Shown here: positions 28,435 through 62,898 of the stretch, one piece after another
Numbering within the stretch: position 1 is the first letter of the stretch
Layout: every line of letters starts with the position of its first letter
The notes under the pieces: generated by a model
Database searches by the model: none
What the model was told of the DNA's origin: nothing
The model's input: the letters and a program-made list of their open reading frames with translations, nothing else
Origin: Gracilariopsis chorda
Taxonomy: Eukaryota; Rhodophyta; Florideophyceae; Gracilariales; Gracilariaceae
Length of the DNA: 64,000 bases
Direction of reading: 5' to 3'
Assembly (NCBI GenBank): GCA_003194525.1
Contig: NBIV01000038.1
Location: forward strand, 340,429 to 404,428
Translations under genes and position numbers: made by a program

Positions 28435-28542
28435 TTTGATATAGTTTATTTTATGCGTAAATCAAAATTTGTGCGGATATCTTATGCAAACCTTCCACCG
28501 CGGCGCGAAGTGCCACCTGCGGCCGAAGGCCGCTTTCCCTTG
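25633..28542 (+). mobile_element. Decayed Helitron inserted in G3 gag; 5' end not located
   Basis: The 3' end is recognisable: CGGCGCGAAGTGCC and GCGGCCGAAGGCCGC hairpins, then TTTCCCTTG, the same terminus as the Helitron array, with T following at 28,543. From 28,543 the minus-strand gag frame of G3 resumes immediately, which fixes this edge to the base. The 5' TC end lies somewhere between 24.53 and 25.63 kb. Confidence 0.7.
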
Positions 28543-34358: not shown

Positions 34359-34481
34359 AATCTGTGGGCGGGCTTCGACCTTCCTTACGAGGTAGCCTTT
34401 GTCGTCTACCCCGAAAGGGAGATCTTCACCACCGTTGATACGGGCACGAATCCTCGTACAGAATGGGTCGCTGAATTGTTC

Positions 34482-35111
34482 TCAGATCATTTCTTCCGGT
34501 GATACCGGTATAAAGTTTCCCGGTAATGGGTTCTCAGAGTCATCTCGCGATGCGAGTAGTTCGTCAAAGTCAGCATCCTCGTCCCAGTTTTCTGGCCCAG
34601 CCTCGACGGCACATTCCGGATCATCCGGGTCTATGGCCATGAAACATGGGACTTCATCATCCTCCGTTGGGAGTGCTTCCCCACTTGTGGGTAACCGTGA
34701 CAAAGCGTCGGCCTGGGTGTTCTGCGCGCCCTTTTTATATATGACTTGAAAGTCATATTCCGCGAGGCGGAGTCTCCAGCGCATGAGGCGTCCCGACGGG
34801 TCGGAGATATTCATTAACCACCTCAATGAGGAATGATCCGTGTACACGGTGAAGTGAACTCCCATAAGGTAGGGGCGCAGAGTGGTCATCGCCCATACGA
34901 CGGCGAGGCACTCTTTCTCCGATACGGAGTAGTTCCGCTCATGAACATTGAGCGAGCGCGACCAATAACCAATTGGGTGTCGTTCCCCCTCGGGGGTAGT
35001 TTGAAAAAGAGCACACCCGACTTGGTAGTCGCTGGAGCCCGTATCTACGGAGTATGGCAACCCAAGTTTTGGGAGATGTAGGATTGGTGCTGATGCGACA
35101 GCCTTCTTCAA
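34482..35111 (-). pseudogene. E2 RNase H
   Basis: Contains LPYSVDTGSSDYQVGCALFQ, PIGYWSRSLNVHERNYSVSE, KECLAVVWAM, VYTDHSSLRWLM and NTQADALSRL, the complete RNase H acidic frame with Thr-Gly after the first Asp. An acidic spacer (ENWDEDADFDELLASRDD) leads to integrase after a TGA at 34,482. Confidence 0.9.
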
Positions 35112-36166
35112 AGAGTTAAAGGCTTCCGATTGCTCGGGCGTAAATTTTCCCAGTTTTGGGGGTTCCCCTTTCGCAACAACGTGGTCAGGGGCGCCGCGGT
35201 ATCCGAAAAGTTCGGGATAAACCGTCGATAGAGGTTGACCAGCCCCAAAAAGTAGCGCAGTTCCGTTTGAGTACGGGGCTCTTTCGACTCAACGAGGGAT
35301 TTGACTCGAGCTTTCTCGATCGCTAACCGTCCAGGACGGATAATGTGACCCAGATACTTCACAGTATCTGTGAAAAACTCTCATTTCCTCAACTTGAGGG
35401 TAATTCCCGCATCGCGGAGTACGGTCAGCACGTCTCGGACGTGAGTGAGATGGTCGTCCAACGAGTTGGAGAAGATGATAATATCATCAACGTAGACCAG
35501 ACAACTCCGCCACTTAAAGCGGTTTAGTAGAATATCTACTGCACGCTGAAAGGTTGCGGGGGCGTTGGTTAACCCAAATTGCATCCGCTTGAAGTGGTAC
35601 GTTCCTGCGTGGCAGGTGAATGCGGTTTTGTCGCGACCCTCCTGTCTGACAGGTACTTGCCAATATCCCCAATTGGCATCGAGGGCCGTGAAAACGGTGG
35701 CATCTCCAAGGGAGTCAATGCACTCGTCCATACGAGGGATAGGGTACGTGTCTCTAACATTCATGGCATTGAGCCGGCGGTAGTCGACACAGAACCTCCA
35801 GGTTCCGTCGGTCTTTAAAGCCAATACAACTGGGGATGCCCAGGGTGATTGAGCGGGCTCAATCACACCTTCGCGGAGCATATTGTCCACTTGGGACTGC
35901 TCCTCTTCCCGAGCTTTTGGACCTGCCCTGTAAAGAGGTTGTGCAACCGGTCGCGCACCGGGGATTAAATCGATCCGGTGTTCCGTTGCATTAATCTCGC
36001 CAAGCGAGCCATCCCACATTGTGGTGAATTCCCGTAACATTGTACGGATTTTGTCGCGGTGCGACTCTGGCACGTGGCTGAAGTCCAGCGCTTCAGGTGC
36101 CTTTTCCGGATCGATCCGGTCGTTGCTCGATGGAGCATTGTCCTGTAGAACAGGTGTGGTTTGCAA
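35108..36166 (-). pseudogene. E2 reverse transcriptase
   Basis: Read from 36,166: MWDGSLGEINATEHRIDLIP, QSPWASPVVLALKTDGTWRF, VDYRRLNAMNVRDTYPIPRM, FTALDANWGYWQVPV, HFKRMQFGLTNAPATFQRAV and CLVYVDDIIIFSN. The YVDD box and the first catalytic Asp are present; E2 is the only gypsy in this window with an intact catalytic box. A stop near 35,380 separates the thumb (MKYLGHIIRPGRL, ELRYFLGLVNLYRRFIPNFS), which is in the same frame. RNase H is in another frame. Confidence 0.92.
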
Positions 36167-36187
36167 TTCCGAGTTACTCGGTATGTT

Positions 36188-37209
36188 CTACGCTGAAGTA
36201 GCGGTTTCCTCCCCCTCCTTAGACTTGACGTCTTCGGACGGCGGGGCGAACTCCTCAGAAGAATTGGTAACTCCGAGTACATCGGCGGCTCTCATCTTCG
36301 TTGGCAGCATTCCCATAGGATGGGGGGTTACACTCCGAATTACTTGGTGTTTTACCAGATACTGGGGGTGTTTGCCAAGGTTGGCAACCAATATCCGGAA
36401 AGGAACATCCGGGGAAATGGAGACAATTCCACTAGCCAGCGCCAGCTGGGATTTCTCGTACAACGAGGCAAGGGGTTGTATAAACCGAAGACCGTGTTGA
36501 CGGGAATTTACCTGCACCAAGACTTGGGATTGAGGCGGTATAGAAACCGAGGCAGCGACGCGGAGCTTGGTGGACTCGCGGGACGCGGGCGGTGGTTCCT
36601 GCGCAGCAGGGAGCGGAACTTGTTTCCGAGAGGACCGCTTTAGCGGGCGGCGAACAATCGGAACCGACGATCCGTCGTCAAGTTCTACATGCCTGAGGCG
36701 GGGCTTGATTGCGTCGAAAAATCTGTCACAGTAATCACATCCCAGTATGACTGGTGCTGCCAATGAACGGCAACGATGAAGTCCAACTTCACCACAGAGG
36801 TACCAAGTCTCACGACGAGGTCCACTGTGCCCACCGTTTGTAACGGATTGTTGTTCGCATCCGAAATGTCGGGGACCGCGTCAGAGCGGATACGAGACCA
36901 CACAAGTGGGGTTAACAATGATTCCACAACAAAGTTGGGGCCTGCACCTGTATCCAGGACGGTGAGAAACCTCACCATAAACTGGGGATCAAGGCCAAGG
37001 TCGGCATAGACCTTGTAATTGCGCTTGGCCAAGACCAAGACTCTACCGGGAATCCGGGGATTTTTACTCCGTATCCACGGGCGACGCAGGACACGAAGGT
37101 GCGCAGAGTCCGCGTCAGCGGTGTCTTTCCTCGAGAGGACTTTCACCGGGGAGCGAGGCGGGGACGCCTCGTGCGTCAACAGCCTCTTGTCTGAGGACGC
37201 CTCTCCCAA
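36188..37209 (-). pseudogene. E2 aspartic protease and linker to RT
   Basis: VLAKRNYKVYADLGLDPQFM and RFLTVLDTGAGPNFVVESLL give the retropepsin D-T-G-A. ISDANNNPLQTVGTVDLVVR, APVILGCDYCDRFFDAIKPR, VELDDGSSVPIVRRPL and QVLVQVNSRQHGLRFIQPLA follow. The two parts (37,209-36,685 and 36,763-36,188) overlap in different frames, so one frameshift lies near 36.7 kb. The C-terminal acidic stretch is the spacer before RT. Confidence 0.85.
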
Positions 37210-39406
37210 AGGGGAGACTCCCTCAGTTAGTTTTCCGCCTTCGGCGGTGGGTTGGGTTCCTCGACAACGAGTGCTTCATCCCGTTGACGGGGGTTTCTAT
37301 CCGCATAAGCGGGGGTTGCAACGGATGGTTGCGTGATCTCCCGAATCGGGGTGTATGAAGCTTGCCGCGCACGCGAGGTCTGTGGTAGGGCATGGGAAAA
37401 GTCCGTTTTAGCACGGAGGTAGGACGCCGTCGGGACGGAACGTTTCTCCTCTGGAGTGAGGGCCTCATAATTTGCCACTACCTTGGCCATATCCTTCAGT
37501 GAACAAATACACTGAGGCGAGGTATGGCCATGGGCATAACAAAGGTGGCAAATGAGAGCCAACACCGCGACACGCGGATTATTATTCCAAGTATCGGAGA
37601 AGCGAACCGCATGGCGGGTGTCAGTCCATCCAGGCCGTTGATAACGGGAATGACCATTTGAAAACGGGAGTCGTTGGGGTTGGACCCGACCGTTACCACC
37701 GTATAGAACGGGATCTTCTGTTCCCGTATCACGGGTCATCTCCGTCGTTGACGCCAAATCACTGGTGGGTATCGACACACCATCCCCCTGCACTAGATGC
37801 ACGGTATCAAATCCCTGTCCAGGGTTCCCATCCGCAGTGAGCGGGAGTGAGAAAGCTTCGCTTTCTAGCAACAACGCCTTGGCGGATTTAGACCGAATGT
37901 TCGGAGTTGTTGCACGAAGTGCATCCCCTTCCGCTCGAGCGTGTTGGACTAGCTCGAGATAGGTGATCCTCCGCTTGTCCTCCCGATAACGGGTAACTAA
38001 ACGCCGGATTGCCGGGCCAAGACCATCGATGAACATGGTACTGCGCTCCCAGCGGGGTATACGTTACCACATCTGTGGAAAGCCTTGTTAAGGCGCACCG
38101 AGTAGTCGGTCTCGGTCTCGGTCTCTCCAGCACGCTGGCGTGTATCTCGCAAAGCGAGGATAGCCTGCTAAATAGCGATGTTTATGGCGTAGGAGCGCAG
38201 AAGATACTGCACAGCCTCCGGCCAGCAAGTAACCCCTCCCTCGAAGGCGCGAGAAGATCCTCTGACAGAGGTGTATTGGTCCCCCGCCGCTCCCCGTAAG
38301 AAATACGGTAAAGCCAAATAGGCTGGTCCTTCATTCATACCGAGGATATCGGCCTCCGCTACAAAGCGGGATAGGAATTCCAGTACTAGGACCGGGTCGT
38401 CTCCAGTAAAATACTGGTTGCGGAGCGAGAGCTGCATTCGCTTAATGCATTCTCGCACCTTTCCCGTACCACGGGGCGTACGTCCAAGTGACGAATCTTC
38501 GAGCCAGTAGTACCGGTATGATAAAAGCTTCCGGTAATCCGGATTTGTCGGTTTCAATTCCCGGAGACCGGGGTGTCTTCTCCCCTTCTGGCGGGTTCGG
38601 ATCACACCTTCAGTGGCCGATGACCGCTCCGAGCGGGAGGAGTAGCCTCGCTTCTCGTCCTCCGAGTCGGAGTCCGAGGAGCTCGAGCTAACCGAATGGT
38701 TTCGGGATGAGTCCGTCGATGTCGAAGAATCGGAGTCCGAATATTTTTGGTAATGTTTCCGTCGATGACGGCGTTTCTTCTTCCCAGCAAGCTGGTCGTT
38801 GTGCGATGCCTCGTTTACTGGATCATCCGGGGATGGTTTGTCCATGAGGACGAACTGCTCCAGCGTCTCTAGGCGGGCACCAATCCGATGAAATCGGGCT
38901 TCAACTCCTTCGATGAAGGTGGCGGGTTGTCCCAAACTCTCCAACACGGAGTTGACGTCAGACCGTAAAATATGGAGTTCCTCGGCAACCTCCTTTACGG
39001 GGATTGCCAAGACCACCTCTTGGAGGGATTTTGGTTCCCCTAAAAGGGTGTCATGGGCGGTCTACAGAGCGCGGACCTGGGATTTCAGGGAAGTCCCCTG
39101 AGGGGTGTTATCCCCCGTTCCACGGGGGCTTGAAGCCGCGACAGCGGGAGTAGGCCGGGGTGCCTGGGGCACTGCGGCAACAGCCGGAGTCGATGCTGCA
39201 TTCCCCTGCGGGGGTGATAACGAGGGCAAAAGGAGTTTCCGGGGTTCCCGGTCAGGTGTATCATTCCGCGATGAAGCGGCGCCAGCACGGCTGGAACTTG
39301 TCCGTATAGGGATACGGGGTACGAACCGAACTTCGGAAGTGTCCGCGTTGTCGCGTGAGCGACTACGCGTCACCACTGGCTCCGCATCGGAGGGATTTCT
39401 CGACAT
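37210..39406 (-). pseudogene. E2 gag
   Basis: Starts at ATG 39,406 (MSRNPSDAEPVVTRSRSRDN). One stop near 39,062 is followed in the same frame by 39,016-38,168, with a Ser/Asp/Glu-rich acidic region (YSDSDSSTSTDSSRNHS) and the capsid-like helical part VRECIKRMQLSLRNQYFTGD, VLEFLSRFVAEADILGMNEG and YLALPYFLRGAAGDQYTSVR. A shifted frame 38,036-37,227 carries HLCYAHGHTSPQC, an exact C-x2-C-x4-H-x4-C knuckle when the preceding Cys is counted. Capsid then nucleocapsid is the standard gag order. Confidence 0.85.
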
Positions 39407-49004: not shown

Positions 49005-49385
49005 ACTATGAAATCGTTATAGGCTACGTTCCAGAGAAGCTCTTGTCAAGACGAGTGTTCAGTGGATTGCGTGTGGTACAAGAGGCCTTTTGGTGTTTGT
49101 TGTGCAGCATTGTGAGTTCGATAGTACGTCCTGTGACTGTGAAATTTTCGGATGATAAGTACAGTGCGCGTCAACCGAATAGGACCAGTCACTCAGAACC
49201 ATAGGAATAGAGAAAACACCTCAAACCTGCATCAACTTGAAGCTCTTTAGAAGCTTAGTTTAATAGAACAAAAAATGTATACAAATCAGAAGTACTTACT
49301 CTGAAATGTATACACAGTATTACAGAGTAAGCCATAAATATACGACCAAAACAGTTCTACTCACTTTCGCGCCAAATTGGAACAA
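49005..49385. other. Left flank of the Helitron array
   Basis: No gene recognised. CTTACTCTG near 49,297 and CAGAGTAAG near 49,323 form a 9-bp inverted repeat. The last base, A at 49,385, is the left target base of the array. Confidence 0.5.
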
Positions 49386-49826
49386 TCTCTCCATCTCTCC
49401 ATTATAATGATTTGTTCCTCTATGAGGGGGGTGTTCTTGATTGAATGGAGGCGTTGCGCCACAAAATCCTCTTGCACGCCCCCGTTTGCCCATCCAAATC
49501 GCCCATTTGGCGCAACGCCTCCCTGCCATTTAAAAAATTCAGCAGCAGCAGCAGCAGCAAAGCTTCCTGCTTACTGGCTGGCACTCCCATAATGACTGCA
49601 GTGCCACCCAGTTACACAAAGCAACGTGTCGCGCTTTCTCATCATTGGCTGGCACTGCAGTCAATTTAGACACCTAGGCGCCGCGGCGCCCCGTGGTTCT
49701 ACGAGCGCTATTGCGAGCGCAAGCGAGCAAAGTGCTCGGAGAGCCTCCGAACGCCACGAAATACACAAAGCTACAAAACCAACGCGGCGCGCAGCGCCGC
49801 CCACGGCCGAAGGCCGTTTCCACTTG
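49386..49826 (+). mobile_element. Array unit 1, non-autonomous Helitron (head A)
   Basis: 441 bp. The first eight bases of head A are repeated (TCTCTCCATCTCTCC). It contains the full set of palindromes and the CAG tract and ends CACTTG. Confidence 0.88.
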
Positions 49827-50114
49827 TCTCAACACCCCACTCTTAATGATTTACACATGTATGAGGGGGGTGTTGTTGACTGACGGGAGGCGTTGCGCCA
49901 CAAAATCCTCTTGCACGCCCCCGTTTGCGCATCCAAATCGCCCATTTGGCGCAACGCCTCCCCACCATTAAAAAAATTCAGCAGCAGCAGCAGCAGCAAA
50001 GCGTTCAGTTAATTTGCTGCTGCTGCTGCAAGTTGACTGTGCAATGGCTGCTGAATGGCTTGCAATACAATCAAATTGTTGTGCCAGCCACTCAGCAGCA
50101 AAACCCCGCCTGTT

Positions 50115-50256
50115 CATTCCGACACGTGGCAAATTGCACTGCGCCAGTGCAGCCCATTCCGACACGTGGCAAATTGCACTGCGCCAGTGCAGTGTATACT
50201 GAAGTTTCATTGCAGACTTGCCTGCAACAGACGTATATACTGCACTGGCGCAGTGC
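50115..50256 (+). promoter_or_regulatory. Direct and inverted repeats in the Helitron leader
   Basis: A 40-bp segment starting CATTCCGACACGTGGCAAAT occurs twice in tandem (50,115 and 50,155). Its GCACTGCGCCAGTGCAG portion returns inverted at 50,240-50,256. Between the CAG tract and the coding region, such iterons could be transcription-factor or Rep-binding sites; this is inference. Confidence 0.45.
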
Positions 50257-50920
50257 CAAATGCATCTCGCTTGCTGACCCTAACCACTATTTTCCATCCC
50301 ATTCAGGCTTGGCCAATAGCGCAGTGTCGTAACCTTTTGCTACTTTGGGCACTGTTTGCTGGCCTGGGACCTAGGCAAGGCCGAGCTCGTGTGCAGGTCG
50401 CCACAAGAGTAACCCACTAAGTACCACGGATCTGGTAAAAGTCAGGTGCTCTTCTGTGGTATACTGGTCGTTTGACGGCGATCAGGAAGTCTGAGGGTTT
50501 ACCGGACCTAATACCAGCTTGCTGTGCAGGGTCCGGGGCGGCCGTCGTGTCGTACCTCTTGGGGCCGGAAAGCACACTTCGGTGTGTGAGTAAAGGCAGA
50601 CCAATCCTTACAACCGGACGCGGGTTAAACATCAAACGGCTTGAAAACCGGCTGGGCACACTCCGCCCGTCATAATCCAACAGGAGTGTGTCGAGAGTCC
50701 CTGTGCTGCGCACGACTGCATCGGGTAAATATAAGCCTTGCAGCAATTTGTTTTTTTAATTGCTGCATGCGACTAGTCCCGGTGGGTGCAACGCAACAAA
50801 CTGCAATAAGTTTTTCACTTTCAACTTTGTGTTTTATTGGGAATTATTCTGGAACTCTGGCAAATTTTTTAACGGTTTAAAAACATAGAATTGTTTTTTT
50901 CTTTTCTTTGGTAAATTGAA

Positions 50921-53900
50921 ATGACGAGAGGAGGGCGACGTCTGAACTCTGGTGGCATCCGATCTAACTCGGGAGGTGCCAGAGACAATTCTGGAGGTGC
51001 CAGGTTGAACGCAGGCGGTTCAAGGCAAAACGCTGGTGGTCGTCGCGTCGGCAGTGGTGGAGCACGGGCAGGAGCTGGAAGACCCCGAAGAGAACCAGCT
51101 CCTCCATCTCCAGATGAGTTGGGAGTAAATGAGAGCGGAGCACACGTTCAAGGACCTATTGTTCCAGTGGTTGAAGAAGACGAAATTACTCCTGCACCTA
51201 CTTCGGTTGCAGCAGCAGTTAGCACAAGCGCCGCTGGAGCCAGTGGGTCCGCTGCCACAGATCTACCAACATCGTCCCCAATTCCTGGATTTCTGGAGTT
51301 TGTGAGAGGCCTTCCAAGTCACATTCCACCGCCTCCGATGCCTCCCCCTCTCCCACCGATGCCTGCAGAACAGATGCCTATTGCAATGGAATTGGAAGAG
51401 GATGAGATCATCCCTGCTCCCTCACAGCCACCGCCATCACAGCAGCCTGCTCTGCCACAAGCTGAACAAGAGGAAGAACAGATGCCAGTCCCGATGGAAG
51501 TGGAAGAGGATGAGATCACCCCGGCTCCCTCACACCCGCCGCCGCAGCCTGCGTTGCCACAAGCGGAACAGGAAGAACAACAGATGTCCATTCCGATGGA
51601 GGTGGAAGCGGATGAGATCACACCAGCTCCCTCACACCAGCCGCAGCATCAGCCACAGCAACAGCTTGATACGACGGTCATGCACTGTGCTGGGCGTCCT
51701 GATCGAGGACTCTATCGCGTGTACTATGCGTGGGATTCCGTGGCAGCTCAGGCGAGGAATGATCCGGCCATCCGTGCAAGCGTGCCGGAGTTTGAGACGC
51801 TTCCCACTGCAGGTCAAAGGCGATGCGGAAGATGCGGCGAGCACGCACACACGCTCTCCTCCTGCCCGTACCGGGACTGGACATTGAGAATTCATAGCTG
51901 CAAGTACTGCGGATGCGTTTTGCTTGGCAAAGAGACCAATGGAGAGTGCTGTGGAATGAAAAGAATGTCAGGGTGGGGCGTCACGTTCCGCAGAAGGCAT
52001 AACAACGAGTTGGTTCGCAGTCTTTATAGTCTGAGAGCCTTTCACAGCCATTTTCTCAACTTGAATACGCTCTTCGCTACGACGCAAGCGTTCATGGACA
52101 TGTCGTATGTGACGGGAGGCGGTCCCTCCTTTCTGAGACTTGAGGGAAACGCAGCTCTCGCTCTGCCCACGCAGAACCAGAACAACACGCGCTACAGCTT
52201 TCTGTGGGGTACTGGTCCCCCTAACTTGGATCCCTCTCACTATGCGCGTGCCAATGTGCGAGCGTTCATTCAAGATATCAACGTACGAGACATCGTGCCC
52301 AAGTTGTATGATGTGATCCAGCCCAAGCCAGACGTGGTGCGTGAGCGGTACCGATCCATGCTTAGCACGCAACAACAACAACAAAATGCAGATACCGCCG
52401 TCGATATCAGCATGCAGGCAGCAGAAGAGGGAGTAGTCGTACGTGGTTACGAAGGAACCCGAAGTGCCACAGTCAGTGCTCCTCACGTAGGTGCTGGGCC
52501 TCTCCCTGAAGATGCTCCTGGTGGAGGGCCAACCATGATGAGAACGCTCGTCGTGGATCCGACTGGCCTCTACCGAGTGGAGTCTCAAGTACCGCGCTTG
52601 GTAGAAGGAACCGTAACAGAAGAGCACGCCGTAGTGACGGCTGCTGGTGCTGCTAATGCTGGAGATGGGGCGACTGCGAATGCCGCAAACAATGCGCAAG
52701 TGCGGTACCGCCTTCTAAAACCGGCATCCAAAATGGCAGAGAAAGGCACTTTTCCTCTTCTCTACCCGTACGGAGATCAGCACGAACCGTTTGACATTGG
52801 CGTGTTTCTGGAGGCAAAGAACTCAACACAGCAAATCTCAAGTCTCAGCGTCAACGAGTGGAAGCTCCGAAAGCTCACCTGGGCTGAGAACGCGAAGAGA
52901 CGACTGTACTCAGACAACATCCTTCTGGACAGTGGACCGTTGATGCAGATGTGGATGCTTCGCACCCACACAAACATTGAGGACATGCGACTGCGTTTCT
53001 TCGAAAGAGAACAACGGGCACGCATTGTACAAGAGCAAGAAATGCAGCAAGCACAACAGCAAACCGGTCACGTGCCACAATCCAAGTTCGTGCTAATGGG
53101 ACGCATCTTTCTGCCCGATGACTCCGTCAACTCAGCAGCATACTGGAAGAACAAGCGCATGGATGTACAGGCGATCGTGGCGCGGAGAGGACCGCCTTCT
53201 CTGTTCATTACAATCACCATGAACATCTGGCGAGAGGACATCCAGCGTCTTGGGATGGACACCACCAATCGTGGCGCATTTACGGCACAAAGTAACCGCC
53301 CTCGACCGTTTGACCGACCGGATCTGATTGCAAGGGTGTACAACCAGTACGCAAACGACTTCATGAAGGATTTGGAGAAGAACTCGGAGCAGATCTTTGG
53401 ATTGAAGTGCCTGGGGCTTGCATCAAAGCTCGAGTTTCAAGAGCGCAATGTGCCTCATCACCACATGCTCGTGTGGCTCGAAGGAGGCGTGATTGAAGAC
53501 GTTGATGTGATCGACGAGCTCATTCGTGCAGAACTTCCCCTTCCAGGCGAAGACGACGCGTTGCGTGCTCTCATTCGTTCCATGCACAGGCACCGCCACT
53601 CCACCTATTGCCGGAATCGCGCTGGGCGGTGCAAGTTTGGATACGACAGCAATATGATTGTGCCGGAGACATACATTGAAGAAGGCACGAATCGCGTTAT
53701 TTACCGCAGAAGAAGGCAAGAAGACCTCAAGATTGTGCCGTACAACCCAACTCTGACCAAGAAGTACCGCTCTCATATCAACGTAGAACGCACGCAAGGA
53801 GGGGGCGCAGTGGCTTATCTGATGAAGTACGCGTTTAAGCAGCCCAAAGCTCAGGAGGTGGTGCCCAATGTGAGTGATGCTAATGAGACAGGCACACACA

Positions 53901-56344
53901 ACGAGCAGCAACAAGAGCCACAGGTGCAGAACGACATTCGCGCATACATGCAAGCGCGTGTGGTGGGCGCCGTCAATGCAGCTTGGAGACTTTTCGAGTT
54001 TCGACATGTTCACATCGTACCAAAAGTAGAGCGACTGGCCATTCACTTGGAAGGAGAGCGCACATTTCTGCTGAGAGGTCCAAACCAGCTCTCTTCTGCA
54101 TCACAGCCGTCTACACTGGAGAGATACTTTGCAAGGCCCGAAGCATACGCGAACCTCGACTACCTTTCGTACTTTGAAAAATTGCGATTGTATCGCACGC
54201 TTCCAGCCCGCGTGCTTAACCAATACGACGGAGACAGCACTCAGGTGCCCACAGACGACTGCGATCCGCCCATGTACGTGGTAGAGCGCACGGACGACGA
54301 GCAGTGTGTCGCAAGGATCAGAGCTGTTTCACCGTCGGACATTGAGCTCTTTGCTCTGTGCTTGCTGCTCATGAATCACGGCTCGAGCTCTTATGAAGAC
54401 GCAAGGACTTTCAACGGACAGCAGTATGGAACGTATCGTGAAACTGCGATTGTAAGCGGACTGCTCGCGGACGGATCCGAGTTTGATATTGCATTGCAAG
54501 AAGCAGTGCAGATATACAGCACGCCCTCAGAGCTACGACGTCTGGTTGTCACACTATACCAACAAGGCGCAGACCCAGAAAAAATGGCCGTCGAAAACTG
54601 GGAGGCGTTATGTAGCGACATACATACAGGAGATGAGCAGCAACGAAAGCAAGAAATGTATCGACGGGTGGTGGAAATCTCAGACCGGCACGGAGGACGA
54701 CTGCTTCGCGATCGCAGCTTCTTCTCCCAGCACCTACAGCAGGATCATAGAGCATTGACTGAGGCAAATCGAGCTACAATAACTCGAGACGCACGAGTGG
54801 TGCGAAATTCGTCAACTTTGCAGTCAAGGTACGCCACCTTAAAACCTCGCCAAAGACAAGTCATTGACACCGTCATTGCTGCATTGCAACAACGACAGGC
54901 ACTGCAGGAGCGAACAAGCACTCCTGGAAACGTGTTCTTTGTGCAAGGATCCGCAGGAACCGGAAAGACATACGTGCTCAACCTCCTTCGTGATATCGTT
55001 GAGTCGGAAGGAATGCTCGCCGAAATGACTGCTACAACAGGCATTGCAGCTTCGTTGTACGAAGGTGGCCGCACTTTACATAGCCTTCTCGGACTGGGTG
55101 TAGCTGATAGGGACAGCACAAGCAACACTACAGCCACTTTGTCAAAGTACGGTCCCCGATCTCAACGTGCAGAACTGCTACGCGAAATACAACTGCTCGT
55201 CTTGGATGAGGCGTCCATGCTCTCACGAAAGCTCTTCGAACTCATGGATGCGTTGCTCAAAGATCTTCGCTGCAGTGGAATGGAAAACCCGCCTCCGTTT
55301 GGGGGCTTGACCATCATTCTATCCGGCGACTACTCCCAGCTGCTTCCAGTGGTGCCGCAGGTGTACATGGAGGCCGAGCCAAGTGGTAATGTGAGACGAG
55401 TGTACACAAACATTCTCAACGAATTGCCGTGGAAGAGTGATCTGTGGATATTGTGCTCGGTTCAAGTGCTGTACCTCACGGAACAAGTACGCCAAGCCGA
55501 TGATCCTGCATTTGCGTCGCTGTTACGTTCCATTGCACGAAACACAATATCCAACAACGCTCCGCTATCACTCAGATCTACCGGTGGCATGCAAACCGCC
55601 TACCAATTCCTGTGGAAGTGGCTCACAACACGACGCAAGGAGGATGTGGATCTCAGCAAAATGCTCATTGCCTCCACAAATCAGTTGGTCGATGAGCACA
55701 ATGCGGCAGCGCTAGATCTGTTTCCTGGTGAACGCTTCACTCTTCCGTCAGCTACGACGGTACAACCTGACCGTGTACCAAACTCAGAGCCCGACGTCAC
55801 CAATACCTTTGTTCCCGAGTTTGCGTATCAGTATGCACCTACTGGTGTACCTCCTCATAACTTGGATTTGAAGATTGGTGTGCCAGTTATGGTCATTCGG
55901 AACGTGTTGCATCCGGCTGTGCTCAACGGAAAGCTGTTCGTAGTCGTGCGTGTAGATCACTTTACGATGCAGGTGGCTCGATTCGACGAGAACGGACAGG
56001 TGCTCGAACGACAGCTCCTGCATCGTATCGACTTCGAGTTTTCTTTCGCAGACATTCGCATGATTCGAAGGCAGTTCCCTATTCGTCTTGCGTTTGCAGC
56101 TACAGTTCACAAAGGACAGGGAAAAACCTTGGATGGCTTGGTTGTGGATGTACGATCCAACTTCTTCTGCGCAGGTCAGTTGTATGTCGCATTGTCGCGC
56201 GTTCGAAGGAACGACCATGTGCTGCTCCTGCATGATCCGCAGCTTACACCCGAAAATGCGCACACAATTCATCCCATGCCTGTTCCCATCGCCAACCCAG
56301 TGCTGCCTGAAGCCATTCAGTTCTGCATCCCTCCACAACCGTAA
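50921..56344 (+). CDS. Helitron Rep-helicase (rolling-circle transposase), intact
   Basis: 1,807 residues, single exon, ATG at 50,921. Residues 4-52 are seven heptads of the type GGxRxNS, ending in an AT-hook-like GRPRR. Residues ~75-240 are Pro/Glu-rich with four copies of a VEEDEITPAPS-like unit. A Cys/His zinc region (CGRCGEHAHTLSSC, CKYCG) lies near 305-345. The Helitron N and Rep parts carry PSLFITITMNIWRED, the HUH box VPHHHMLVWLEGG (~845) and the Y2 motif AVAYLMKYAFK (~966), which nick and join DNA. The PIF1-like SF1B helicase has Walker A GSAGTGKTYVL (~1345), Walker B LVLDEASML (~1427), LSGDYSQLLPVVP, and C-terminal FAATVHKGQGKTLDGL (~1728) and LYVALSRVRRND. All catalytic motifs are present, so the protein may be functional. 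Confidence 0.95.
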   Translation: MTRGGRRLNSGGIRSNSGGARDNSGGARLNAGGSRQNAGGRRVGSGGARAGAGRPRREPAPPSPDELGVNESGAHVQGPIVPVVEEDEITPAPTSVAAAVSTSAAGASGSAATDLPTSSPIPGFLEFVRGLPSHIPPPPMPPPLPPMPAEQMPIAMELEEDEIIPAPSQPPPSQQPALPQAEQEEEQMPVPMEVEEDEITPAPSHPPPQPALPQAEQEEQQMSIPMEVEADEITPAPSHQPQHQPQQQLDTTVMHCAGRPDRGLYRVYYAWDSVAAQARNDPAIRASVPEFETLPTAGQRRCGRCGEHAHTLSSCPYRDWTLRIHSCKYCGCVLLGKETNGECCGMKRMSGWGVTFRRRHNNELVRSLYSLRAFHSHFLNLNTLFATTQAFMDMSYVTGGGPSFLRLEGNAALALPTQNQNNTRYSFLWGTGPPNLDPSHYARANVRAFIQDINVRDIVPKLYDVIQPKPDVVRERYRSMLSTQQQQQNADTAVDISMQAAEEGVVVRGYEGTRSATVSAPHVGAGPLPEDAPGGGPTMMRTLVVDPTGLYRVESQVPRLVEGTVTEEHAVVTAAGAANAGDGATANAANNAQVRYRLLKPASKMAEKGTFPLLYPYGDQHEPFDIGVFLEAKNSTQQISSLSVNEWKLRKLTWAENAKRRLYSDNILLDSGPLMQMWMLRTHTNIEDMRLRFFEREQRARIVQEQEMQQAQQQTGHVPQSKFVLMGRIFLPDDSVNSAAYWKNKRMDVQAIVARRGPPSLFITITMNIWREDIQRLGMDTTNRGAFTAQSNRPRPFDRPDLIARVYNQYANDFMKDLEKNSEQIFGLKCLGLASKLEFQERNVPHHHMLVWLEGGVIEDVDVIDELIRAELPLPGEDDALRALIRSMHRHRHSTYCRNRAGRCKFGYDSNMIVPETYIEEGTNRVIYRRRRQEDLKIVPYNPTLTKKYRSHINVERTQGGGAVAYLMKYAFKQPKAQEVVPNVSDANETGTHNEQQQEPQVQNDIRAYMQARVVGAVNAAWRLFEFRHVHIVPKVERLAIHLEGERTFLLRGPNQLSSASQPSTLERYFARPEAYANLDYLSYFEKLRLYRTLPARVLNQYDGDSTQVPTDDCDPPMYVVERTDDEQCVARIRAVSPSDIELFALCLLLMNHGSSSYEDARTFNGQQYGTYRETAIVSGLLADGSEFDIALQEAVQIYSTPSELRRLVVTLYQQGADPEKMAVENWEALCSDIHTGDEQQRKQEMYRRVVEISDRHGGRLLRDRSFFSQHLQQDHRALTEANRATITRDARVVRNSSTLQSRYATLKPRQRQVIDTVIAALQQRQALQERTSTPGNVFFVQGSAGTGKTYVLNLLRDIVESEGMLAEMTATTGIAASLYEGGRTLHSLLGLGVADRDSTSNTTATLSKYGPRSQRAELLREIQLLVLDEASMLSRKLFELMDALLKDLRCSGMENPPPFGGLTIILSGDYSQLLPVVPQVYMEAEPSGNVRRVYTNILNELPWKSDLWILCSVQVLYLTEQVRQADDPAFASLLRSIARNTISNNAPLSLRSTGGMQTAYQFLWKWLTTRRKEDVDLSKMLIASTNQLVDEHNAAALDLFPGERFTLPSATTVQPDRVPNSEPDVTNTFVPEFAYQYAPTGVPPHNLDLKIGVPVMVIRNVLHPAVLNGKLFVVVRVDHFTMQVARFDENGQVLERQLLHRIDFEFSFADIRMIRRQFPIRLAFAATVHKGQGKTLDGLVVDVRSNFFCAGQLYVALSRVRRNDHVLLLHDPQLTPENAHTIHPMPVPIANPVLPEAIQFCIPPQP

Positions 56345-56492
56345 TCATATCTCTTGCATTCTTTTTTCATTGAATTAAACTACTTGCTTTTCTGCTTTTG
56401 CTTTCTCCACCCTCTTTTTTCCTCACCGCTGTTTATCACTCCTCCACCGCGGCGCGCAGCGCCGCCCGCGGCCGAAGGCCGCTTCCTCTTGT

Positions 56493-56935
56493 TCTCTCCA
56501 TTATAATGATTTGTTCCTCTATGAGGGGGGTGTTCTTGATTGAATGGAGGCGTTGCGCCACAAAATCCTCTTGCACGCCCCCGTCTGCCCATCCAAATCG
56601 CCCATTTGGCGCAACGCCTCCCTACCATTTAAAAAATTCAGCAGCAGCAGCAGCAGCAAAGCTTCCTGCTTATTGGCTGGCACTCCCATAATGACTGCAG
56701 TGCCACCCAGTTACACAAAGCAACGTGTCACGCTTTCTCATCATTGGCTGGCACTGCAGTCAATTTAGTCACCTAGGCGCCGCGGCGCCCCGTGGTTCTA
56801 CGAGCGCTATTGCGAGCGCAAGCGAGCAAAGTGCTCGGAGAGCCTCCGAACGCCACGAAATACACAAAGCTACAAAACCAACGCGGCGCGCTGCGCCGCC
56901 CACGGCCGAAGGCCGTTTCCACTTGTCTCAACACC
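56493..56935 (+). mobile_element. Array unit 3, non-autonomous Helitron (head A)
   Basis: 443 bp, directly behind the autonomous unit with one extra T at the join. Near-copy of unit 1. Confidence 0.88.
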
Positions 56936-57403
56936 CCACTCTTAATGATTTACACATGTATGAGTCTCAACACCCCACTCTTAATGATTTACACATGTAT
57001 GAGGGGGGTGTTGTTGATTGACGGGAGGCGGTGCGCCAATAAACCGCCCTGTATGCCCCTCTACGCGCTTGCAAAACTGCCATTTGGCGCAACGCCTCCC
57101 TGCCATTTAAAAAATTCAGCAGCAGCAGCAGCAGCAAAGCTTGCTGCTTACTGGCTGGCACTCCCATAATGACTGCAGTGCCACCCAGTTACACAGAGCA
57201 ACGTGTCGCGCTTCCTCATCATTGGCTGGCACTGCAGTCAATTTAGGAACCTAGGCGCCGCGGCGCCCCGTGGTTCTACGAGCGCTATTGCGAGCGCAAG
57301 CGAGCAAAGTGCTCGGAGAGCCTCCGAACGCTACGAAATACACAAAGCTACAAAACCAACGCGGCGCGCAGCGCCGCCCACGGCCGAAGGCCGTTTCCGC
57401 TTG
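56936..57403 (+). mobile_element. Array unit 4, non-autonomous Helitron (head B, doubled)
   Basis: 468 bp. The first 39 bases (56,936-56,974) are repeated exactly at 56,975-57,013, so this unit has two 5' ends in a row. Confidence 0.88.
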
Positions 57404-57836
57404 TCTCTCCATTATAATGATTTGTTCCTCTATGAGGGGGGTGTTCTTGATTGAATGGAGGCGTTGCGCCATAAAATCCTCTTCCACGCCCCCGTTTGCC
57501 CATCCAAAACTGCCATTTGGCGCAACGCCTCCCTACCACTTAAAAAATTCAGCAGCAGCAGCAGCAGCAAAGCTTCCTGCTTACTGGCTCGCACTCCCAT
57601 AATGACTGCAGTGCCACCCAGTTACACAAAGCAACGTGTCGCCCTTTCTCATCATTGGCTGGCACTGCAGTCAATTTAGACACCTAGGCACCGCGGCGCC
57701 CCGTGGTTCTACGAGCGCTGTTGCGAGCGCAAGCGAGCAAAGTGCTCGGAGAGCCTCCGAACGCCACGAAATACACAAAGCTACAAAACAAACGCGGCGC
57801 GCAGCGCCGCTTACGGCCGAAGGCCGTTTCCACTTG
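57404..57836 (+). mobile_element. Array unit 5, non-autonomous Helitron (head A)
   Basis: 433 bp. The tail variant GCGCTGTTGCGAGCG with CTTACGGCCG is shared only with unit 8. Confidence 0.88.
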
Positions 57837-58269
57837 TCTCTCCATTATAATGATTTGTTTCTCTATGAGGGGGGTGATCTTGATTGAATGGAGGCGTTGC
57901 GCCATAAAATCCTCTTCCACGCCCCTGTTTGCCCATCTAAATCGCCCATTTGGCGCAACGCCTCCCTGCCATTTAAAAAATTCAGCAGCAGCAGCAGCAG
58001 CAAAGCTTCCTGCTTACTGGCTGGCACTCCCATAATGACTGCAGTGCCACCCAGTTACACAAAGCAACGTGTCGCCCTTTCTCATCATTGGCTGGCACTG
58101 CAGTCAATTTAGACACCTAGGCGCCGCGGCGCCCCGTGGTTCTACGAGCGCTATTGCGAGCGCAAGCGAGCAAAGTGCTCGGAGAGCCTCCGAACGCCAC
58201 GAAATACACAAAGCTACAAAACCAACGCGGCGCGCAGCGCCGCCCACGGCCGAAGGCCGTTTCCACTTG
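57837..58269 (+). mobile_element. Array unit 6, non-autonomous Helitron (head A)
   Basis: 433 bp; its middle and tail resemble those of unit 9. Confidence 0.88.
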
Positions 58270-58708
58270 TCTCAACACCCCACTCTTAATGATTTACACA
58301 TGTATGAGGGGGGTATTGTTGATTGATAGGAGGCGGTGCGCCAATTAACCGCTCTGTATGCCCCTCTACGCGCATGCAAAACTGCCATTTGGCGCAACGC
58401 CTCCCTACCATTTAAAAAATTCAGCAGCAGCAGCAGCAGCAAAGCTTCCTGCTTACTGGCTGGCACTCCCATAATGACTGCAGTGCCAGCCAGTTACAAA
58501 AAGCAACGTGTCGCGCTTTCTCATCAATGGCTGGCACTGCAGTCAATTTAGGCACCTAGGCGCCGCGGCGCCCCGTGGTTCTACGAGTGCTATTGCGAGT
58601 GCAAGCGAGCAAAGTGCTCGGAGAGCCTCCGAACGCCACTAAATACACAAAGCTACAAAAACAACGCGGCGCGCAGCGCCTCCCACGGCCGAAGGCCGTT
58701 TCCACTTG
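58270..58708 (+). mobile_element. Array unit 7, non-autonomous Helitron (head B)
   Basis: 439 bp. Variants such as TCATCAATGGCTGG and GAGTGCTATTGCGAGTGC are shared with unit 10. Confidence 0.88.
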
Positions 58709-59147
58709 TCTCAACACCCCACTCTTAATGATTTACACATGTATGAGGGGGGTATTGTTGATTGATAGGAGGCGGTGCGCCAATTAACCGCTCTGTATGC
58801 CCCTCTACGCGCATGCAAAACTGCCATTTGGCGCAACGCCTCCCTACCATTTAAAAAATTCAGCAGCAGCAGCAGCAGCAAAGCTTCCTGCTTACTGGCT
58901 GGCACTCTTATAATGACTGCAGTGCAAGCCAGTTACACAAAGCAACGTGTCACGCTTTCTCATCATTGGCTGGCACTGCAGTCAATTTAGGCACCTAGGC
59001 GCCGCGGCGCCCCGTGGTTCTACGAGCGCTGTTGCGAGCGCAAGCGAGCAAAGTGCTCGGAGAGCCTCCGAACGCCACGAAATACACAAAGCTACAAAAC
59101 AAACGCGGCGCGCAGCGCCGCTTACGGCCGAAGGCCGTTTCCACTTG
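58709..59147 (+). mobile_element. Array unit 8, non-autonomous Helitron (head B)
   Basis: 439 bp. The head is like unit 7 and the tail like unit 5, so it looks recombinant. Confidence 0.88.
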
Positions 59148-59580
59148 TCTCTCCATTATAATGATTTGTTTCTCTATGAGCGGGGTGTTGTTGACTGACG
59201 GGAGGCGTTGCGCCACAGAATCGTCTTGCACGCCCCCGTTTGCCCATCTAAATCGCCCATTTGGCGCAACGCCTCCCTGCCATTTAAAAAATTCAGCAGC
59301 AGCAGCAGCAGCAAAGCTTCCTGCTTACTGGCTGGCACTCCCATAATGACTGCAGTGCCACCCAGTTACACAAAGCAACGTGTCGCCGTTTCTCATCATT
59401 GGCTGGCACTGCAGTCAATTTAGACACCTAGGCGCCGCGGCGCCCCGTGGTTCTACGAGCGCTATTGCGAGCGCAAGCGAGCAAAGTGCTCGGAGAGCCT
59501 CCGAACGCCACGAAATACACAAAGCTACAAAACCAACGCGGCGCGCAGCGCCGCCCACGGCCGAAGGCCGTTTCCACTTG
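59148..59580 (+). mobile_element. Array unit 9, non-autonomous Helitron (chimeric head)
   Basis: 433 bp. It starts as head A, then switches to GGGGTGTTGTTGACTGACGG as in B-type units. Confidence 0.88.
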
Positions 59581-60019
59581 TCTCAACACCCCACTCTTAA
59601 TGATTTACACATGTATGAGGGGGGTATTGTTGATTGATAGGAGGCGGTGCGCCAATTAACCGCTCTGTATGCCCCTCTACGCGCATGCAAAACTGCCATT
59701 TGGCGCAACGCCTCCCTACCATTTAAAAAATTCAGCAGCAGCAGCAGCAGCAAAGCTTCCTGCTTACTGGCTGGCACTCCCATAATGACTGCAGTGCCAG
59801 CCAGTTACAAAAAGCAACGTGTCGCGCTTTCTCATCAATGGCTGGCACTGCAGTCAATTTAGGCACCTAGGCGCCGCGGCGCCCCGTGGTTCTACGAGTG
59901 CTATTGCGAGTGCAAGCAAGCAAAGTGCTCGGAGAGCCTCCGAACGCCACGAAATTCACAAAGCTACAAAACCAACGCGGCGCGCAGCGCCGCCCACGGC
60001 CGAAGGCCATTTCCACTTG
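59581..60019 (+). mobile_element. Array unit 10, non-autonomous Helitron (head B)
   Basis: 439 bp, almost identical to unit 7 by eye. Confidence 0.88.
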
Positions 60020-60489
60020 TCTCAACACCCCACTCTTAATGATATACAAATGTATGAGGGGGGTGTTGTTGATTGACGAGAGGCGGTGCGCCAATAAACC
60101 GCCCTGTATGCCCCTCTACGCGCTTGCAAAACTGCCAGTTGGCGCAACGCCTCCCTACCATTTAAAAAATTCAGCAGCAGCAGCAGCAGCAAAGCTTCCT
60201 GCTTACTGGCTGGCACTCCCATAATGACTGCAGGGCCATCCAGTTACACAAAGCAATGTGTCGCGCTTTCTCATTATTTGCTGGCACTGCAGTCAATTTT
60301 AGCACCTAAACACAAACCGCTACGGCTTCACATACTCTCGGCGCCGCGGCGCTCCGTGGTTCTACGAGCGCTATTGCGAGCGCAAGCGAGCAAAGTGCTC
60401 GGAGAGCCTCCAAACGCTACGAAATACACAAAGCTACAAACACAACGCGGCGCGCAGCGTCGCCCACGGCCGAAGGCCGTTTCCACTTG
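60020..60489 (+). mobile_element. Array unit 11, non-autonomous Helitron (head B, long)
   Basis: 470 bp. It carries an extra ~30 bp (AAACACAAACCGCTACGGCT and following) before the GGCGCCGCGGCGC palindrome, a variant also seen in units 13-15. Confidence 0.88.
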
Positions 60490-60921
60490 TCTCTCCATTA
60501 TTATGATTTGTTCCTCTATGAGGGGGGGTTCTTGATGGAATGGAGGCGTTGCGCCATAAAATCCTCTTCCACGGCCCCGTTTGCCCATCTAAATCGCCCA
60601 TTTGGAGCAACGCCTCCCTACCATTTAAAAAATTCAGCAGCAGCAGCAGCAGCAAAGCTTCCTGCTTACTGGCTGGCACTCCCATAATGACTGCAGTGCC
60701 ACCCAGTTACACAAAGCAACGTGTCACGCTTTCTCATCATTGGCTGGCTCTGCAGTCAATTTAGGCACCTACGCGCCGCGGCGCCCCGTGGGTCTACGAG
60801 CGCTATTGCGAGCGCAAGCGAGCAAAGTGCTCGGAGACCCTCCGAACGCTACGAAATACACAAAGCTACAAAACCAACGCGGCGCGCAGCGCCGCCCACG
60901 GCCGAAGGCCGTTTCCACTTG
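60490..60921 (+). mobile_element. Array unit 12, non-autonomous Helitron (head A)
   Basis: 432 bp, short variant between long units. Confidence 0.88.
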
Positions 60922-61392
60922 TCTCAACACCCCAATCTTAATGATTTACACATGTATGAGCGGGGTGTTGTTGACTGACGGGAGGCGTTGCGCCACAGAA
61001 TCGTCTTGCACGCCCCCGTTTGCCCATGCAAATCGCCCATTTGGCGCAACGCCTCCCTACTATTTAAAAAAATTCAACAGCAGCAGCAGCAGAAAAGCTT
61101 CCTGCTTACTGGCTCGCACTCCCATAATGACTGCAGTGCCACCCAGTTACACAAAGCAACGTGTCGCGCTTCCTTATCATTGGCTGGCACTGCAGTCAAT
61201 TTAGGCACCTAAACACAAACACCTACGGCTCCAAATACTCTCGGCGCCGCGGTGCTCCCTGGTTCTACCAGCGCTATTGCGAGGGCAAGCGAGCAAAGTG
61301 CTCGGAGAGCCTCCGAACGCCACGAAATACACAAAGCTACAAAATCAACGCGGCGCGCAGCGCCGCCCACGGCCGAAGGACCTTTCCACTTG
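60922..61392 (+). mobile_element. Array unit 13, non-autonomous Helitron (head B, long)
   Basis: 471 bp. The tail reads CGAAGGACCTTTCCACTTG, so the terminal hairpin stem is imperfect here. Confidence 0.87.
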
Positions 61393-61861
61393 TCTCAACA
61401 CTCCACTCTTAATGATTTACACATGTATGAGGGGGGTGTTGTTGATTGACGGGAGGCGGTGCGCCAATAAACCGCCCTGTATGCCCCTCTACGCGCTTGC
61501 AAAACTGCCATTTGGCGCAACGCCTCCTACCATTTAAAAAAGTCAGCAGCAGCAGCAGCAGCAAAGCTTCCTGCTTACTGGCTGGCACTCCCATAATGAA
61601 TGCAGGGCCATCCAGATACACAAAGCAACGTGTCGCGCTTTCTCATCATTGGCTGGCACTGCAGTCAACTTAGACACCTAAACACAAACCCTAATGGCTC
61701 CACATACTCTAGGCGCCGCGGTGCCCTGTGGTTCTACGAGCGCTATTGCGAGCGCAAGCGAGCAAAGTGCCCGGAGAGCCTCCGAACGCTACGAAATACA
61801 CTAAGCTACAAAACCAACGCGGCGCGCAGCGCCGCCCACGGCCGAAGGCCGTTTCCACTTG
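61393..61861 (+). mobile_element. Array unit 14, non-autonomous Helitron (head B, long)
   Basis: 469 bp, long variant with head details like unit 4. Confidence 0.87.
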
Positions 61862-62332
61862 TCTCAACACCCCACTCTTAATGATTTACACATGTATGAG
61901 CGGGGTGTTGTTGACTGACGGGAGGCGTTGCGCCACAGAATCGTCTTGCACGCCCCCGTTTGCCCATGCAAATCGCCCATTTGGCGCAACGCCTCCCTAC
62001 TATTTAAAAAATTCAGCAGCAGCAGCAGCAGCAAAGCTCCTTGCTTACTAGCTGGCACTCTTATAATGACTGCAATGCCACCCAGTTACACAAAGCAAAG
62101 TGTCGCGCTTCCTCATCATTGGCTGGCACTGCAGTCAATTTAGGCACCTAAACAAAAACTCTAACAGCTCCACATACTCTCGGCGCCGCGGTGCCCCGTG
62201 GTTCTACGAGCGCTATTGCGAGCGCAAGCGAGCAAAGTGCTCGGAGAGCCTCCGAACGCTACTAAATACACAAAGCTACAAAACCAACGCGGTGCGCAGC
62301 GCCGCCCACGGCCGAAGGCCGTTTCCACTTGT
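61862..62332 (+). mobile_element. Array unit 15, last non-autonomous Helitron (head B, long)
   Basis: 471 bp, closely like unit 13 in the head. It ends CACTTG, followed by T of the chromosomal target. Confidence 0.88.
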
Positions 62333-62402
62333 AGCAAACATTATAACGATTCAAACTGCTTTCTACCCACCTCCCCCGTTCTCCCAGTTCCACAGCAGAG
62401 TT

Positions 62403-62898
62403 GTGGAAAAAGTTTCGGACGAGAAGAAGTTTAATTTGGTTGGTCCGGATGGCTTCGCATAATACTGGCATGCCGTTGGTTCAAAAAAGCGTTTGGTTTC
62501 TAAACGACAAAAAGGAGGAGGTGGAATCATGGTTTGGGGCTGTTTTGCCTACTCTGATAGAGGTCGTTTGGTTTTTATGAATGGAAAATAAGACTTTAAG
62601 AAGTATACGAAGCCACTCGAAGATCATTTATTGGATTTGGCTGCTGTTAGCAATGGCGAATCGTGGCTGTTCCAGAAAAAACACTGTTTAATTCATGTGT
62701 CTAAGCACTCTAAGGACTAGTTTGCTGTAAAAAACATTAATTTATTGGACTGATCTAGTTATGCGCCGGATATGAATCCCATTGAAAACATTTGGTCTAT
62801 ACTAGCGCGCTGTGTGTACTACTAAGCACGTCAGTTTAGCTTTTTGGTGGAGCTAAAAGAAACGATTTTTACTGAGTGTAATAACCTTAGTGATGAGG
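62403..62898 (+). pseudogene. Tc1/mariner-type transposase relic, C-terminal half
   Basis: One frame with several in-frame stops: EKVSDEKKFNLVGPDGF (first catalytic Asp), GGGGIMVWGCFAYSDRGRLV, WLFQKKHCLIHVSKHSKD and YAPDMNPIENIWSILARCVY (catalytic Glu). The second Asp, normally in F-Q-Q-D-N-A, is replaced. The N-terminal DNA-binding half is absent on both sides of the Helitron array, so it was lost before or during array insertion about 70 bp upstream. Confidence 0.8.

Follow-up and report, generated by a model that had tools for sequence, protein, structure and literature searches.

A single A/T site (here and below the slash marks a point of joining) in the red alga Gracilariopsis chorda holds 15 full Helitron units set head to tail in one orientation, and we think it probable, at roughly two chances in three, that this array was built by serial and independent insertions in that same orientation, mainly at the 5' end of an element already resident, A/TCTC. 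The array lies in a stretch of 64,000 nucleotides (GenBank assembly GCA_003194525.1, contig NBIV01000038.1, positions 340,429 to 404,428), which we call the window and which forms part of contig C38 of the 91.3-Mb assembly of 1081 contigs that was searched. Whether tandem Helitrons arise from failed termination or from consecutive insertion has so far been argued from two-unit cases; this one genome offers hundreds of junctions, as well as arrays long enough to test both routes, and it favors consecutive insertion. The serial insertion proposed here, including the step at which the transposon protein Rep would choose its target, is put forward from sequence comparison.

Anatomy of the array and its target site

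Pattern delimitation of the block gave 16 five-prime starts for 15 full units, the additional start belonging to a 39-bp 5'-end fragment (Table 1). Every full unit begins with TCTC and ends in CTTG, and 12 of the 14 transitions between full units are direct CTTG/TCTC joints. The other two carry a single extra T, at 56492, and the 39-bp fragment, which sits between units 3 and 4 and is itself joined to unit 3 as CTTG/TCTC. The host bases bordering the array are an A at 49385 and a T at 62332. The 14 short units (432-471 bp) align to a common 3' ending, which in unit 1 is predicted by DNA folding to form two hairpins (-16.2 kcal/mol, z -3.10).

Table 1. Features of the Helitron array and of the interrupted target, in window coordinates.
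Feature	Position	Strand	Basis or remark
Left part of interrupted target, a dispersed repeat, ending in target A	49152..49385	+	paralogues L071-L074
Whole Helitron array, 15 full direct-orientation units	49386..62331	+	pattern delimitation; borders set by empty-site comparison
8-bp 5'-end stub TCTCTCCA ahead of first full unit	49386..49393	+	missing from empty-site paralogues
Unit 1, 433 bp, 5' type A; diverges by 0.7% from its closest relative among the other arrays compared	49394..49826	+	
Unit 1 3' end: two hairpins, then TTTCCACTTG; other units end alike	49783..49826	+	DNA fold, alignment
Unit 2, autonomous-size, 6665 bp, 5' type B	49827..56491	+	pattern delimitation, alignment
Open reading frame in unit 2, 1807 aa	50921..56344	+	Helitron_like_N and PIF1 domains
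Single extra T at unit 2/unit 3 junction	56492..56492	+	delimitation
Unit 3, 433 bp, type A	56493..56925	+	alignment
39-bp 5'-end fragment of a type B unit	56926..56964	+	not in contig C699
Unit 4, 439 bp, type B; matches one C7 array unit at 99.1%	56965..57403	+	alignment
Unit 5, 433 bp, type A	57404..57836	+	alignment
1311-bp tandem duplication: segment from within unit 5 through unit 7, and its repeat from within unit 8 through unit 10	57521..60019	+	
Unit 6, 433 bp, type A	57837..58269	+	alignment
Unit 7, 439 bp, type B	58270..58708	+	alignment
Unit 8, a 439-bp hybrid resembling units 7/10 in its 5' part and unit 5 in its 3' part	58709..59147	+	
Unit 9, 433 bp, type A start and a patch resembling units 13/15	59148..59580	+	alignment
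Unit 10, 439 bp, type B; shares 98.6% identity with unit 7	59581..60019	+	
Unit 11, 470 bp, long form	60020..60489	+	
Unit 12, 432 bp, type A	60490..60921	+	alignment
Unit 13, 471 bp, long form; diverges by 6.6% from its closest relative among the other arrays compared	60922..61392	+	
Unit 14, 469 bp, long form	61393..61861	+	
Unit 15, 470 bp, long form; diverges by 5.9% from its closest relative among the other arrays compared	61862..62331	+	
Right part of interrupted target, starting with target T	62332..62631	+	paralogue comparison

When the two flanks are joined at 49385/62332, they match other copies of the dispersed repeat straight across the joint. Four paralogues (L071-L074) read GA/T there with no gap and so represent the uninterrupted site, from which it follows that insertion took place at one A/T with neither duplication nor loss, and that the 8-bp stub is part of the array. 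A search with 690 bases of the joined flanks returned related empty sites and no identical one. The interrupted repeat looks Tc1/mariner-like by eye only, and three 42-aa pieces taken from the right target part had no match in a Pfam scan. The stub together with a following 5' end occurs at four places in the genome (C7, C38, C88, and C164), at two of them before a B-type unit.

The locus has a second copy on contig C699, in which the autonomous 3' end and the extra T are again present, together with 13 units and a right flank shared with the window. The comparison covers 6,250 of 12,421 bases, and its main aligned piece is 99.5% identical to the window (4 mismatches and 22 gaps in 5411 bases). 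The 39-bp fragment is missing from C699, with a 426-bp unit in its place. C699 supports the number and order of units in the window array, although it comes from the same assembly and is hence not independent read evidence. The idea that it might be an allele of different length was rejected, as the same 13 units are present.

The open reading frame of unit 2 matches the Helraiser structure 7lcc_A over residues 607-1764 (E=1.6e-78). Its protein carries HHH at aa 846-848, YLMKY at 966-970, and the Walker A motif of a PIF1-type helicase at 1343; we take the first two to be the motifs of the HUH nuclease, the catalytic residues being assigned from known Helitrons. With that assignment, the elements combine a two-tyrosine HUH nuclease fused to a PIF1-type helicase with A/T insertion without target duplication, a 5'-TC end (TCTC), and a hairpin just ahead of the 3' end, as members of the Helitron superfamily do. 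The canonical 3' tetranucleotide of Helitrons is CTRR. The present 3' end, CTTG, has T as its third base, so the elements are filed under the Helitron superfamily and not under the strict CTRR group; the ending CTAG is given in the literature (PMC2267711, PMC4778049; these and all other papers are cited here from partial text). Among the 13 other large copies compared, the nearest to unit 2 is C1_11793, at 98.51%. Elsewhere in the window, a second, diverged Helitron at 27344-28542 has about 69-70% nucleotide identity to parts of the unit 2 Rep gene and a related 3' end whose CTTG, at 28542, has a T directly after it; a further end-like match lies at 28521, outside the array block.

An earlier note on this DNA, made from its letters alone, had described 15 TCTC-to-CTTG units in tandem, one of them with an intact Rep-helicase, between an A on the left and a T on the right. 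Delimitation and domain searches confirm that description, and the uninterrupted site found in related copies supports the note's placing of driver and passengers together at an A/T site. Spacerless joining with one extra T holds for the 12 direct transitions and for the T at 56492, but the 39-bp fragment and the 8-bp stub had gone unmentioned. The empty AT site for which the note had proposed a genome search is represented by the four related, uninterrupted copies.

Junctions, neighbors, and order of units across the genome

The genome contains the exact 22-position pattern of the 3' end 578 times and the reversed pattern not once, so chance is excluded. As many as 415 of these 578 exact 3' ends abut the exact 5' start of another unit, and the remaining 163 have no such start directly behind them: tandem arrangement is the rule in the Gracilariopsis chorda genome. 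The window array is thus unusual, as the note had it, in being long compared with those in the literature searched, but not in being tandem, and the proposed search for other arrays found them to be common. Because the assembly already contains at least 415 CTTG-TCTC junctions, the PCR suggested for detecting circles across such junctions is uninformative here; joined-end PCR cannot reveal circles wherever such arrays exist. For 100 listed of the 578 places, splitting at gaps >7.2 kb gives 42 groups, the largest with 20 exact ends, and 74 of the 100 places sit in groups of two or more. The longest array parsed, C7, has 33 units, three of them ~6.6 kb and three ~1.9 kb, and its parse stops before the right edge; one of its large units is nested in a truncated unit.

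The orientation of these junctions is almost wholly one-way. Zero-spacer head-to-head junctions were found at 3 places in the genome, and tail-to-tail junctions at none, with up to 2 mismatches allowed. Since A/T is its own reverse complement, placement without a choice of strand would yield both orientations. Extra-T junctions occur at 3 places, one being the C699 copy of the window locus. There are 99 exact 5' ends not preceded by G, of which 80 follow A, 19 follow T, and 0 follow C. Split by type, the 25 of type A follow A in 12 cases and T in 13, and the 74 of type B follow A in 68 and T in 6. At least some of the T-preceded ends adjoin a 3' end that reads CTTT, not CTTG, or an extra-T junction.

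On contig C271 (73843-81960) there are three pairs of type A 5' ends at 28 bp spacing, which suggests repeated 5'-end duplications. At L047 in C5 (reverse complement 1064 and 8639), two units adjoin what appears to be a B-type unit minus its first 17 nt; a genome search for CTTG followed by a B unit without those 17 nt gave 0 exact matches, although C5 has two base-changed cases.

For comparisons between units, 126 units were parsed at 26 loci, a non-random sample drawn from the tops of the match lists and from left-edge searches. Tests on short units used the 104 of these that measure 380-560 bp; C3a (a 3' end without a parsed start), L048, C699, and other 3' ends without a parsed start were excluded from the unit statistics. 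The 94 adjacent junctions mix the 5' types (30 BA, 23 BB, 21 AB, and 20 AA). For the 65 alignable adjacent short pairs the median divergence is 9.1%, against 9.7% between different arrays, and their mean of 9.33 compares with 9.75 +- 0.34 in within-array shuffles (p=0.11). In the window, unit 4 has its closest match in C7 (Table 1) and is at most 95.9% identical to any unit of its own array. Among the large copies, five directly abut another (two in C1 and three in C45), and 3 of the 5 have their nearest relative at another locus; C1_11793 and C27_1638, on separate contigs, are 99.16% alike. Neighboring units are thus, for the most part, unrelated, with a small excess of recent local copies. 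We also observed that C1 (L035-L037) and C27 (L049 and L066) have a stretch of ~9.7 kb in common, at 98.4%, with different left flanks. This may be a case of multi-unit transposition or of segmental duplication, and the stretch runs off the end of the C27 contig.

As a measure of the age of a unit, we took its divergence from the nearest unit in any other array. In the window this divergence climbs toward the right (S=63 of 91 pairs, p=0.00025), as it does in C7 (S=184 of 351, p=0.0001), and terminal branch lengths follow the same trend (p=0.00185 and p=0.00145, respectively). For the 22 arrays that contain at least two short units, taken together, the divergence trend has p=0.00005. The long form of the unit (>=455 bp) is the more diverged one, with a median of 4.3% (n=40), while units of the 425-445-bp class have one of 2.4% (n=62), and long forms stand to the right in 8 of the 22 arrays and to the left in 0 (p=0.00005). 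First and last units of the 22 arrays differ by the Wilcoxon test at p=0.012, which is the figure to be used. Leaving out C38 and C7 gives p=0.031, leaving out C4 and C5 gives p=0.002, and leaving out all four gives p=0.006; the grounds for leaving out C4 and C5 are that the leftmost unit of C4 lies 3 bp from its neighbor and is 19% diverged, and that C5 consists of two separate sites. If divergence is read as age, then our reading is that arrays would grow mainly leftward, with exceptions.

Routes by which the array may have grown

The first element entered the dispersed repeat at A/T, at the insertion site described above. Its initial T, together with the host A, re-creates the A/T target exactly at the resident 5' end, and it is presumably at this point, too, that Rep makes the nick with which transposition begins. 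Under serial insertion, an incoming element originating at another locus, whether or not it is autonomous and possibly in the form of a joined-end circle, would then be joined in the same orientation, the 3'-OH of the resident A to the incoming TCTC and the 3'-OH of the incoming CTTG to the resident TCTC. The product would be a perfect CTTG/TCTC junction with a new A/TCTC at the left edge, and hence mainly leftward growth; an incoming strand passed to a nick already open at the 5' end would produce the observed junctions. Later unequal exchange and conversion within the array may have duplicated and mixed units. A more specific version, which we offer tentatively and find slightly easier to doubt than to believe, holds that the resident 5' nick site is the favored landing site through strand-specific, nick-to-nick joining, such that arrays (of up to 33 or more units) would be polar and roughly time-ordered records of transposition bursts, with the oldest units rightmost. 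If the 5' nick site is the target, this would explain both the spacer-free junctions and the single orientation, the stacking would limit damage to host genes, and the arrays would give a rough record of transposon bursts.

Several results weigh against serial leftward insertion. In the 20 smaller arrays alone the order of divergence is not significant (12 for, 8 against, p=0.31), nor is that of terminal branches (13 for, 6 against, p=0.15), so the overall p value rests on the two long arrays. A sign test on first and last units of the 22 arrays gave 14 up and 8 down (p=0.14). In C24 an old unit is followed on its right by a young one, and the order of the large units in C45 is contrary to the trend, although those of C1 and C7 agree with it. 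Same-type pairs that differ by <=1% make up 3 of 31 adjacent pairs, 1.8% of non-adjacent pairs within arrays, and 0.6% of pairs between arrays; neighbors are therefore near-identical more often than other pairs, and some copies arose locally. For 4 of the 8 large copies in multi-copy arrays (2 of them in C45), the nearest relative is in the same array. Three features do not follow from the simple model: the extra T, the 39-bp fragment, and the A-type stub where it precedes other units. In addition, the proposal must be supplemented with a reason why the A/T at a resident 5' end would be picked out from the great number of others, with a single strand used almost every time.

The alternative that survives best, though we consider it improbable, is that a joined-end circle integrates into a resident element by homologous crossover, giving a perfect tandem and two reciprocal hybrid units. 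Exact junctions, one orientation, mixed types, and mosaics such as units 8 and 9 (the patch in unit 9 is otherwise found in units 13 and 15) would all follow from it. Such crossovers would, however, leave a leftmost unit with an old 5' part and a rightmost unit with an old 3' part and a newer 5' part. Counting mismatches to the nearest relative in another array, the leftmost window unit has 2 in the 5' 150 bp and 0 in the 3' part, and the rightmost has 7 and 2, the reverse of the prediction, on a comparison of few bases that makes this a weak point. Moreover, crossovers anywhere in the array would leave no trend with the young units on the left.

Recombination within arrays has left clear traces, and we accept unequal crossing-over as a secondary process. 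A lag-1311 self-match runs from ~57521 to 58720 at 87-100% per 60 bases, with 480 identical bases at 58121-58600, and unit 8 is the hybrid at the seam of this 1311-bp, three-unit duplication, which is best read from its sequence as local unequal exchange. C7 likewise contains an internal 5.6-kb near-duplicate (99.3%). That a few insertions were followed by satellite-like enlargement would fit these cases, as well as the slightly greater closeness of same-type, non-adjacent units within arrays (median 5.1%, 225 pairs) than between arrays (6.0%, 2397 pairs; adjacent pairs 6.4%, 31 pairs). As the main cause it seems unlikely to us, given that the 1311-bp duplication accounts for 3 of the 15 window units. 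With 54 outside and 13 inside candidates, 8 of the 14 window short units have their closest relative in another array and 2 more have an equally close one there, making 10 that are matched at least as well outside the array. By the medians just given, units are not clearly closer within arrays than between them. Satellite-type exchange would also leave both edges old, whereas the left edge of the window array is young.

Rolling-circle read-through, in which the 3' hairpin is missed, the circle is copied repeatedly, and a ready-made concatemer is inserted, stands slightly lower still. The earlier note had offered such a failed stop as one route, and it is the published explanation for tandem copies in a bat, as cited in PMC2267711; it too predicts perfect head-to-tail junctions in one orientation. 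Units of a concatemer would be near-identical when made, but only 3 of the 65 adjacent short pairs are >=99% identical, and neighbors overall are no closer than shuffled ones, differing in type, length, and divergence. The three consecutive large copies in C45, among 14 large copies compared, are 97.5-98.6% alike and thus differ by 1.4-2.5%, and read-through gives no prediction of the left-to-right trend. We therefore rejected it as the main cause. A few near-identical pairs remain, and the three adjacent short pairs and the twin 1798-bp units of C1 (99.94% identical) could be small cases of it. Two autonomous-size copies inside C7 are 99.63% alike.

Repeated insertion at the 3' end, CTTG/T, was the note's other route, and its repeated insertion stands while its site does not: CTTG/T is presumably cut when transposition ends, the maize line data left the order of insertion open (PMC2267711), and units of lower divergence lie on the right in C24 and C45, yet the trend in both long arrays is the opposite and points to the 5' side, A/TCTC, with long forms on the right in 8 arrays and on the left in none, which makes growth at the 3' end very improbable.

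Other features of the window lie outside the array. A 248-aa frame at 7222-7965 (+), with a likely signal peptide by eye, has 10 matches, of which one is on a contig at 94%; Gracilariopsis chorda supplies the sole named relative (41%). At 2251-4425 (+) there is a Ty3/gypsy-type integrase/RNase H frame (domains per its relatives) that is 60% identical to another contig, and at 32838-38036 (-) the translations contain, by eye, pieces of a gypsy-type retroelement (integrase, RNase H, reverse transcriptase, and gag-like).

Comparison with known tandem Helitrons

Tandem Helitrons were reportedly described in the bat Myotis lucifugus by Pritham and Feschotte in 2007. Like the window array, these have perfect head-to-tail junctions; as cited in PMC2267711, they were read as rolling-circle repeats on the ground that no A separates the units, whereas the window units are heterogeneous. 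A close likeness is to a Helitron pair in the maize r1 region (Du et al. 2008, PMC2267711), which is also head-to-tail and spacerless with a G/T junction and different contents. The different contents of the two maize elements were taken there to indicate consecutive insertion, and insertion at the A/T formed by the host A and the first T of the resident Helitron is one of two orders that were offered. The maize case differs in having two units, an order left unsettled, and a need for clean excision under the A/T option, and the text available gives no genome-wide pattern. Two-unit cases and the A/T idea are thus already published for maize; the scale, strict orientation, and polarity described here were not found in the literature searched. 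That literature, mostly non-subscription and seen in part, holds two- and three-unit tandems and arrays of truncated copies, and no case of a family arranged chiefly in polar arrays of full-length, heterogeneous units. For the related Gracilariopsis lemaneiformis, 1.71% Helitrons have been reported (PMC5970526).

FoHeli elements of Fusarium oxysporum and a three-copy tandem in Metarhizium (PMC5148889) resemble the window in self-insertion, short duplicated 5' ends, and joined-end products, the joined ends of FoHeli1 being reported as amplicons; they are Helitron2-like with asymmetric terminal inverted repeats and are single tandem cases. Plants have long tandem arrays of truncated Helitrons (Xiong et al. 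2016, via the review PMC12628747), many with several 5' ends and a single 3' end, whereas the window units have both ends and include a large coding copy. Helraiser, the bat Helitron (PMC4778049; PDB 7lcc), shares the RepHel protein, A/T target, 5'-TC end, and 3' hairpin, and joined-end circles have been demonstrated for it; it ends in CTAG, and the growth of arrays is not described in the part of that paper cited here. A parallel to the joining step proposed above comes from bacterial conjugation, in which the relaxase TrwC (PMC3264647), a two-tyrosine-dependent HUH enzyme, attaches incoming DNA to its own nick site (oriT) where a copy of that site is already resident, and for the Helitron array this would serve as a mechanistic analogy only.

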